In this document: in pieces, positions 30 through 3,190 of the stretch
Numbering within the stretch: the first letter of the stretch is position 1
How the letters are laid out: each line of letters begins with the position of its first letter
NCBI GenBank assembly: GCA_023132135.1
Contig: JAGLYR010000066.1
Span: forward strand, 1 to 9,753
DNA from: Candidatus Eiseniibacteriota bacterium
GTDB taxonomy: Bacteria > Arandabacterota > Arandabacteria > JAGLYR01
Direction of reading: 5' to 3'
Length of the DNA: 9,753 bases
Made by a program: the position numbers and the translations under genes
The notes under the pieces: generated by a model
What the model was told of the DNA's origin: nothing
Databases searched by the model: none
Seen by the model: only the letters and a program-made list of their open reading frames with translations

Positions 30-111
30 CTCCGGGAGCGACTCAGTCCAAAGGCACCTCTCGCCACATGCCCCGGCCCCTCGCGACGAAAGCCGGCGAG
101 AAACGCGGGCT
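30..111 (-). repeat. Inverted copy of the left arm of the 1333-1513 palindromic element
   Basis: Read on the minus strand from 111 down to 30, this segment aligns without gaps to 1334-1415. By hand count 74 of 82 positions match, about 90%. The similarity stops sharply near position 30, just where the other copy enters its central hairpin. Bases 1-29 do not show that hairpin, so this is either a half element or a copy with a diverged centre. Any second arm would lie before the window. The two copies face each other across murB. The copy ends only 4 bp before the proposed murB -35 box. It is non-coding and looks like a small dispersed, possibly non-autonomous, element. Confidence 0.85.
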
Positions 112-1148: not shown

Positions 1149-1332
1149 AGGGTATCAAAGACAGTCCCTAGTCCGTAGTCCAAGGAGAAGGGCATCATAC
1201 CCTCACCCTGCCCTCTCCCAGAGGGAGAGGGAAAACACAACAGACTTCCTTACTCTGCGTATTCTGCAGCCAAGGGTTCGCTGTTCTCGCCCTCGCCCTA
1301 TCGCCCACTCTCGCGCTCGCCACGTCGCCGCT
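1149..1332. other. Non-coding spacer downstream of murB
   Basis: No gene is supported here; open frames crossing it have unnatural, low-complexity compositions. It contains a short TAGTCCG-type duplication near 1169-1181 and the REP-like hairpin described separately. A pyrimidine-rich stretch at about 1277-1332 is built of CTCGCC/CTCGCG-like units. With the palindrome at 1333-1513 this makes the whole gap between murB and the convergent amidohydrolase gene repeat-derived. Confidence 0.6.
1200..1231. repeat. REP-like hairpin of the CCCTCACCC/CCCTCTCCC type
   Basis: Bases 1211-1219 and 1223-1231 form a perfect 9-bp stem (CCCTCTCCC with GGGAGAGGG) around a 3-base loop, preceded by CCCTCACCCTG. 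From general knowledge, this kind of sequence is found as scattered intergenic copies in many high-GC bacteria and gives spurious peptides resembling PLPLGEG. No T-run follows on either strand, so it is not a classical intrinsic terminator. It could still stabilise the murB transcript's 3' end. Confidence 0.7.
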
Positions 1333-1513
1333 TAGCCTGCGTTTCTTGCCAGGTTTCGTCGCGAGGGACCGGGCCATGTGGCGAGAGGCGCCTTTGGACT
1401 GAGTCGATCCCGGAGGCGTAGCCGTGGCTACGCTGAGGAACCGACGAGGGAAAAGGCGCCTCGCAGCCCATGGACCGGTACCGTAGCAGAAGCCTGGTGA
1501 GAAATGCAGGCTA
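1333..1513. repeat. 181-bp imperfect palindromic (foldback, MITE-like) element
   Basis: The ends are inverted repeats: 1333-1357 matches the reverse complement of 1489-1513 at 21 of 25 positions, the outermost 8 bases (TAGCCTGC) perfectly. The centre is an 8-bp perfect stem, GCGTAGCC at 1416-1423 with GGCTACGC at 1426-1433. Between ends and centre the arms also match in blocks, for example the GGCGCC segments at about 1387 and 1455. The whole element could fold into one long hairpin. It has no coding capacity, as expected for a non-autonomous element moved by an enzyme encoded elsewhere. The left arm recurs upstream of murB at 30-111. No clear target duplication is visible. The right end overlaps the stop codon of the neighbouring amidohydrolase gene. 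Lying between two convergent genes, a hairpin this long may also halt transcription. Confidence 0.85.
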
Positions 1514-3190
1514 GTCTTGCTCGTAGACGATTTTCCCGCCCATGATGGTCATCAGAACCTTGGTCTCCAGCAGCTTCCTCGGTTGAATCTCGAAGATCGG
1601 CTTTGACAGCACCACAAGATCTGCCAGATTGCCTTCCTCGATGGACCCCTTGATGTCTTCCTCAAAGGATGCGTAGGCCGATCCCAGCGTATATGCGCGC
1701 AGCGCTTCTTCCAGGGAGATGCACTGTTCCGGATACCAGCCTCCCTCGGGGAGACCATCGGCGTTCTGTCGGGTCACGGCTGCATGGATTCCCAGGATCG
1801 GATCCAGCTTGTCGTTTGGCCAGTCCGATCCGAATGCCAGGTGAGCACCGGTGTCGAGCACGGAACGCCAGGCATAGGCGCCCTTGATTCTCTCCGGTCC
1901 GAGACGGTCCTCCGCCCATCTCATGTCCGAGGTGCAGTGAATCGGTTGCATGGACACGATGATGCCCATCTCGGCAAATCGGGGAATATCTTCAGGGGCC
2001 AGCACCTGGTCGTGTTCGATACGGTGACGATGGCCTGGAAACGGGTACTCGTGACTGGCCTCGGCATAGGCATCCAGAACCATCCGGTTGGCCCGGTCGC
2101 CGATGGCGTGGACAGCCATCTGGCGATGTTCCTGGTTGGCCCGGCATACCAGGCGCCTGATTCTTGCCTTGGGCGTGACGACGATTCCCCTGGAGTCCGG
2201 ATGGTCATGGTAGGGTTCCAGAAGCGCCGCGGTTGCAGCTCCGAGAGCCCCATCGGCATAGACCTTTGCACTGCCGATCCGGAGCCGGTGGCTGTCGTAC
2301 TGCGACAGGTCCCGAACCGGCGGGAGATGGTCGTCGCCCTCCTCAACGTTGAGGGATGCGCTGATGCGCACCGTGAGATTCCCACGGTCGTAGAGTTCCT
2401 GATAGATGTCCAAGGCCTCGGGGGACGTACCCATCTCCTGGACGCTGGTGATGCCCAGGCGGGCAACCTCCCTCAGAGCCGTCTCGATGGCTCGACGACG
2501 TTCTTCGGCAGTCCGCTCCGGGATAGCGTCGGCGATGAGGGAGCCGGCGTCTTCCTTGAGGATGCCCGTGGGGTTCCCGTCCCTGTACCGGACGATCTCT
2601 CCCCCCTCCGGATCGGGGGTGTGACGGGTGATTCCCGCTGCTTTGAGAGCGGCCGAGTTCGCCCAGCCTACATGACCGCAGACGCGCCGAAGGTAGACCG
2701 GGTTGTCCGGCGCGGCCTCGTCGAGCAGCTCCTTGGTTGGCCAGCGGGAACCCGGGAGAAGGGTGTGATCCCAGCCGCGTCCCCGAACCCACGAACCTTC
2801 GGGGAGCGAGTCGACCATGGTTTTCACCCGGCGCTGGATTTCCTCCGGTGTGGTCACACCGTAGAGACGGACCTGGAGCAGCGAAAACCCGCCGGCTTCG
2901 AAGTGCAGGTGCGCGTCGTTGAAACCGGGGAGGACGGTTCTGCCGTCCAGATCTACCACGAGTGTGTTTTTCCCGGCGAGGGAGCGAATTTCCTGGTTGC
3001 TTCCTGTCCGCTCGACCCTCTCCCCGCAAATGGCCACGGCTTCGACGACCGCGTTGCCCGGATCCAGCGTTACGATCTTCCCGTTGAGGAGGATCATGTC
3101 GGCCTCCAGAGGTCTCGAGCATCCGGTAGAGATCAACACGGGCAGGAGAAGCCCCCCCGCAAGGAGCGCAATTGGAACTCGAACCGTCAT
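1511..3190 (-). CDS. Amidohydrolase family 3 (YtcJ/NfdA-like) lipoprotein
   Basis: This is a metal-dependent amidohydrolase of the COG1574 type, a family that includes N-substituted formamide deformylase and YtcJ-like proteins; the substrate is unknown. From the chosen start it has 559 residues. A signal peptide ends in an ISTGC lipobox (Cys24; the -3 position is Ser, so slightly atypical), predicting lipid anchoring outside the cytoplasm. The catalytic TIM barrel shows HLH metal ligands (His94, His96), a lysine in AKVYADG (Lys309, the usual bridging position), His361 in AVHAIGD, His393 in RHRIEH, and Asp456 in FGSDWP. A final ADLVVL strand from the flanking beta domain is present. The start at 3190 has GGGAGG six bases upstream and begins directly at the signal peptide; an earlier in-frame ATG at 3277 would bury it. 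The stop codon TAG lies in the terminal repeat of the 1333-1513 element. The gene is divergent from the dCMP deaminase gene. Confidence 0.92.
   Translation of the reverse strand: MTVRVPIALLAGGLLLPVLISTGCSRPLEADMILLNGKIVTLDPGNAVVEAVAICGERVERTGSNQEIRSLAGKNTLVVDLDGRTVLPGFNDAHLHFEAGGFSLLQVRLYGVTTPEEIQRRVKTMVDSLPEGSWVRGRGWDHTLLPGSRWPTKELLDEAAPDNPVYLRRVCGHVGWANSAALKAAGITRHTPDPEGGEIVRYRDGNPTGILKEDAGSLIADAIPERTAEERRRAIETALREVARLGITSVQEMGTSPEALDIYQELYDRGNLTVRISASLNVEEGDDHLPPVRDLSQYDSHRLRIGSAKVYADGALGAATAALLEPYHDHPDSRGIVVTPKARIRRLVCRANQEHRQMAVHAIGDRANRMVLDAYAEASHEYPFPGHRHRIEHDQVLAPEDIPRFAEMGIIVSMQPIHCTSDMRWAEDRLGPERIKGAYAWRSVLDTGAHLAFGSDWPNDKLDPILGIHAAVTRQNADGLPEGGWYPEQCISLEEALRAYTLGSAYASFEEDIKGSIEEGNLADLVVLSKPIFEIQPRKLLETKVLMTIMGGKIVYEQD

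Follow-up and report, generated by a model that had tools for sequence, protein, structure and literature searches.

The 181-bp foldback at positions 1333-1513 of the 9,753-bp stretch of DNA analysed here (the window) is very probably a gene-less MITE of IS1380 type, which would have been moved in trans and have accumulated at CTAG sites, stop codons included. This window corresponds to contig C309 in a draft genome of 3.40 Mb and 345 contigs, and the foldback lies, as had been described, between two convergent genes, murB (plus strand, to 1148) and an amidohydrolase gene (minus strand, from 1511). Judged from its ends, the target duplications and the copy number, the feature was shown to be a MITE with IS1380-type ends and a CTAG-type target; it would have been mobilised in trans by an IS1380-family transposase. 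In the proposed mechanism, such a transposase would recognise the approximately 17-bp ends (CCYGCATTTCTCACCAG) and insert the element at a 4-bp YTAR site, usually CTAG, with duplication of the site. Within genes CTAG is rare, but it is frequent in intergenic DNA and at TAG stops; copies would have accumulated in the latter two places because insertions there are harmless. The parts of the element in the window are as follows.

1336-1510, no strand assigned: the miniature element proper, 175 bp, subfamily A, right end facing the amidohydrolase gene; delimited by target duplications of relatives and by full-length copies
1332-1335, plus strand: left target 4-mer TTAG, one base off the right 4-mer, adjoining another repeat
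1511-1514, plus strand: right target 4-mer CTAG, whose minus-strand TAG is the amidohydrolase stop codon
1511-1513, minus strand: amidohydrolase stop codon
1333-1352, plus strand: left terminal inverted repeat including three target bases, TAGCCTGCGTTTCTTGCCAG
1494-1513, minus strand: right terminal inverted repeat including three target bases, TAGCCTGCATTTCTCACCAG, a perfect consensus
1356-1366, plus strand: left subterminal box TCGTCGCGAGG, common to families in other phyla
1481-1490, minus strand: right subterminal box TCTGCTACGG, common to families in other phyla
1365-1395, plus strand: left arm of the foldback
1452-1482, plus strand: right arm of the foldback
1416-1433, no strand assigned: central hairpin (8-bp), GCGTAGCC-GT-GGCTACGC, with compensatory changes across lineages
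30-111, minus strand: second copy, truncated and decayed, left half, 82 bp, 90%

All the inverted repeats of the original prediction (arms, terminal repeats and central hairpin) were found around one axis, near 1424. The 25-bp terminal repeats are present but imperfect, with 21 of the 25 positions matching and mismatches at repeat positions 9, 15, 16 and 22. The repeats do lie at 1333 and 1513, but these limits include three target bases on each side. Since the 4-bp CTAG/TTAG duplications of relatives (55 pairs elsewhere) and of intact IS1380 elements fix the boundaries, the element proper is 1336-1510. In a repeat search, the arms 1365-1395 and 1452-1482 paired at 81%. The predicted RNA fold of the 181 nt had an energy of -120.4 kcal/mol, far below that of dinucleotide shuffles (-70.3 +/- 4.7; z -10.7), and none of the 200 shuffles was as low. 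The 175-bp element has no transposase reading frame. That no transposase is nearby was confirmed for the whole window, and a partner with a matching end is located on contig C139. To the left of the element, positions 1165-1332 are a mosaic of other dispersed repeats, each with further copies, containing tandem words of the agtccctagtcc type, a CCCTCACCCT..CCCTCTCCcagaGGGAGAGGG palindrome and agggttcgctgttctcgccctcgccc.

Intact IS1380 elements of Rhizobium, Bradyrhizobium and Pseudomonas end in the same terminal repeat, TAGCCYGCATTTCTCACC, and so does the one surviving IS1380 transposase locus of the own genome. This locus, on C139 (L234), gave the one strong IS1380-family match of the genome (PF13701, E 1.3e-155; NF033539, E 6.6e-117). 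Approximately 0.23 kb past its stop codon lies TAGCCCGCATTTCTCACCAC, which agrees with the end consensus at 19 of 20 positions and has the orientation expected of a right end. The transposase is 5'-truncated, and the copy is considered a remnant because its first residues and the left end are missing where an IS3-like reading-frame pair abuts. As the only transposase copy is truncated, the family is probably immobile now in this genome. Intact plasmid relatives of the C139 transposase, with about 57-60% protein identity, carry the matching repeat at both ends; the repeat reads CTAGCCCGCATTTCTCACAG in the Pseudomonas putida and Stutzerimonas elements and is near-identical in those of Bradyrhizobium and Rhizobium. 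Ends matching those of an autonomous element were thus found in the plasmid IS1380 elements, and at L152 in the own genome. A second DDE transposase (C39) was rejected as a partner, there being no such ends there. The original prediction had proposed a search for a full-length element with the same ends and a transposase; intact IS1380 elements have the same ends, and none of the intact IS elements examined carried both the end and the subterminal boxes. In 23 other genomes or records carrying the end, PF13701 matches were found in 10, mostly as fragments (9 above the family cut-off), and no IS1380 transposase was found in the remaining 13, which are drafts or fragments.

Nine intact IS1380 elements had both ends readable, six of them flanked by CTAG/CTAG and three by TTAG/TTAG; read from these flanks, intact IS1380 elements duplicate 4 bp of a YTAR target. 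Among the matches listed for other genomes, 41 of the 55 miniature pairs had a perfect 4-bp duplication (40 CTAG, 1 TTAG); the pairs had been located with an exact pattern that contained TAG and was applied to one end, so that one inner letter was fixed and the outer letters were free. Whole elements of 63-320 bp with perfect duplications at both ends were present in other genomes. At the window copy, three of the four target bases agree (TTAG left, CTAG right). In the own genome, 2 of the 22 pairs had a perfect 4-bp duplication, and one TTAA/TTAA pair was found at L243. This scarcity is in keeping with the age of the copies and with the other repeats that border their left ends. A 2-bp TA duplication, suggested for the own genome by inner letters that stay G/C and outer ones that vary, was disfavoured by the TTAG/TTAG IS copies and by the L243 pair.

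There is good support for the suggestion of a small non-autonomous element or repeat family, which can now be named by its IS1380-type ends and YTAR target. An absence of further copies, which would have spoken against it, was not observed: matches of at least 100 bases were found at 17 other places in the genome (86-97% identity); whole-length copies numbered seven at 90-96% and one more at 86%, and many of the remaining ones were truncated or cut off by contig ends. The 20-bp end TAGCCTGCRTTTCTCACCAG occurred 226 times in the 3.4-Mb genome with up to 3 mismatches, compared with 0 for the reversed control, and many copies retain a single arm or nothing beyond the 20-bp end. Several subfamilies sharing these ends coexist in the genome, and they are for the most part old, truncated and interspersed with other repeats. 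Full copies often have another repeat directly beside their left end. In many copies (L197, L198, L201, L203, L210, L286, L297) the left end is preceded by ctgagctggtcagagcatagtcccatt, a repeat that was also found before tagcctgcggaattct; this points to composite repeats of larger size. Another foldback family, whose end is TAGCCTGGRTTATTCATGAATCCC, has approximately 70 ends in 1.16 Mb and occurs in forms of 32-68 bp and 181-182 bp (for instance, L215:813-993, L255:4172-4352 and L220:3180-3235). Twenty of its ends lie on TAG stop codons; it lacks the CTAG restriction, often reads GTAG, and has the central hairpin motif in common with subfamily A.

The whole 181 bp was absent from the 59 other genomes searched, seven of them of the same class, and the 181-bp subfamily is therefore lineage-specific as far as sampled. 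The exact 20-bp end was scanned against 84,980 species genomes. Among the matches listed, it was present in Delta-, Gamma- and Alphaproteobacteria, Verrucomicrobiia, Nitrospira, Planctomycetota and Acidobacteriaceae, and also in Acanthopleuribacter pedis and Shewanella benthica. Most loci among these matches were facing pairs and some had one end only; the pairs were 184 bp (26 pairs, mostly from one deltaproteobacterial genome), 181 bp (own genome) or other lengths from 49 to 324 bp. Elements of approximately 180 bp were aligned from the own subfamilies A and B, the deltaproteobacterium, a JALGZR bacterium and a Verrucomicrobiia genome. The four lineages had the right box TCTGCTGCGG, the left box and the central hairpin in common; the arms differed, yet their complementarity was mostly kept. 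With RNAalifold, 12 pairs had changed on both sides, 4 of them in the central hairpin, and the nine copies of subfamily A gave 7 doubly changed pairs compared with 3.8 in shuffles. This shows that the palindrome is maintained; RNA selection, a transposition constraint and template-switch correction are all compatible with it. Two IMG/VR contigs (L154, L155) end in TAGCCCGCATTTCTCACCGC, with identical subterminal sequence in both.

Placement was counted with a home-made gene caller on 1.16 Mb of the 3.40 Mb, partly chosen for carrying copies. On this sample, the TAG of the end coincided with the neighbouring gene's stop codon in 52 of 117 cases when open frames were used, and in 47 when genes were called. 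Profiles of LptG, TatD, MazG, RseP, AcsV, a biotin carrier and others stop no more than a few residues short of the element stops, which are therefore natural gene ends. Raw frame counts mislead: in VGTG, a 69%-GC deltaproteobacterial genome, the in-frame count of 37 out of 85 ends shrank to 10 of 83 under a stricter gene caller. For C-preceded ends, the ratio of stop to intergenic positions (25:56) did not differ from the ratio at the remaining CTAG sites (101:271; p 0.50), and insertions were depleted in coding DNA when compared with CTAG sites as a whole (p 1.6e-4). Therefore, the target and selection are enough to account for these ends, and active stop-codon targeting, as the raw 52 of 117 might imply, was rejected for them. 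A G or A preceded TAG at 18 of 46 stop-codon ends versus 6 of 90 other ends (p 6.5e-6); examples of the 18 are L207:19389, L209:12827, L219:8779 and L302:12029. These GTAG/ATAG stop ends lie outside the CTAG-target expectation and are unexplained. Right ends were at stops in 20 of 40 cases and left ends in 1 of 15 (p 0.004), and one-ended transposition or recombination between end repeats as the cause of these two patterns is a guess. TAG is the commonest stop in the own genome, at 425 of 755 (783 called genes; 59% GC), and still accounts for 376 of 706 once the stops on TIR1 elements are removed.

The element might instead be kept as a 3'-end module with a function of its own: its structured RNA would terminate, protect or insulate convergent transcripts, and mobility would account for nothing but its origin. 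We consider this unlikely. The fold is strong in every family, and the compensatory changes of the central hairpin across lineages and the doubly changed pairs of subfamily A would be expected of it, as would the exact seat on natural stop codons. Furthermore, elements were enriched in convergent gaps (17 of 69) compared with tandem ones (46 of 539; p 1.8e-4), the figure for divergent gaps being 6 of 70; the two-way transcription barrier of the original prediction would suit this excess too and may apply. However, a convergent excess would also follow from insertion at CTAG sites outside coding DNA with subsequent selection, the placement on CTAG stops needs no function, and template switches that correct palindromes can yield compensatory changes without selection. 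Moreover, the truncation of many copies to one arm or a bare end destroys the hairpin. No intrinsic terminator (GC hairpin with T-run) was found inside the element by a simple scan, the one match (1165-1186) being outside it, and the Rfam 15 search of the foldback gave no RNA family at the gathering score. That a long hairpin in the transcript protects or ends mRNAs is speculation.

Alternatively, the mobile unit could be a larger composite that transposed one-endedly, using the right end together with a poorly defined distal end located outside the 175 bp, and 1336-1510 would be no more than its module. ISEcp1 transposes in a one-ended manner. The outer repeats often found beside the left end of full copies in the own genome and the excess of right over left ends at stops point in this direction. 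Nevertheless, the whole elements with perfect duplications at both ends in other genomes argue against it, and the left ends of the second copy in the window and of others lie beside unique sequence; this reading is doubtful. Quite improbable, in our estimate, is a cross-phylum superfamily of gene-less elements of approximately 180 bp that would have a conserved interior (the two subterminal boxes, variable complementary arms and the central hairpin), be placed on natural TAG stops by more than the CTAG target with its right end gene-ward, and act as a portable 3'-end module. A REP/BIME repeat moved by a RAYT (Y1) transposase was rejected as highly improbable: palindromes starting with a TAG-like foot at gene ends and the frequent GTAG of the second foldback family would suit it, but a full Y1 transposase with flanking REPs is missing from the genome (the sole match is a fragment of 112 aa, and none of these ends lies close to it). 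Long terminal repeats, as in the 175-bp element, and 4-bp target duplications, as in its relatives, are moreover not known to arise from single-strand REP transposition.

The IS1380-type MITE can be compared with known systems. Its terminal repeat and 4-bp YTAR duplication are identical to those of IS1380-family members (IS1380A, IS1247 and ISEcp1 group; NF033539/PF13701; repeat CCYGCATTTCTCAC) in Rhizobium, Bradyrhizobium, Pseudomonas and Stutzerimonas. In contrast to these, it has no transposase gene and is 175 bp instead of about 1.65 kb, and its internal boxes and central hairpin were not seen in the IS1380 elements examined. MITEPsy1 of Pseudomonas syringae is a 100-bp gene-less element that was shown to move and that duplicates CTAG or YTAA; however, its terminal repeat GGAAGGTCTGAAAAAGCC is unrelated and attributed to ISPsy2 (IS5 family), and its host range is narrow (PMC3189936). 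MITEPye1 of Paracoccus yeei is likewise gene-less with IS-like ends, target duplications and a long stem-loop, but its ends are of IS1182 type and it has 1-3 copies per chromosome (PMC11578231). TIMEs, the Tn3-derived miniature elements, are non-autonomous and mosaic-building with inverted ends, and differ in their 38-bp Tn3 ends, 5-6 bp duplications and AT-rich targets (PMC4133298). In the literature searched, subscription sources and ISfinder lying outside it, no paper was found on the end sequence or on IS1380-derived MITEs. Among the searched sources, the link between a MITE and IS1380, its cross-phylum distribution together with an interior that is conserved, and its positions on stop codons are new.

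Bacterial MITEs have usually been described from a single species or genus. In the present case, several phyla have the ends, the boxes and the centre in common, and a transposase family and a target can be named for them. The copies may explain why many contigs of the draft assembly break at gene ends. The CTAG target lets the element land on a stop codon with the gene left intact, and the stop-codon copies at GTAG/ATAG present a concrete, testable puzzle.
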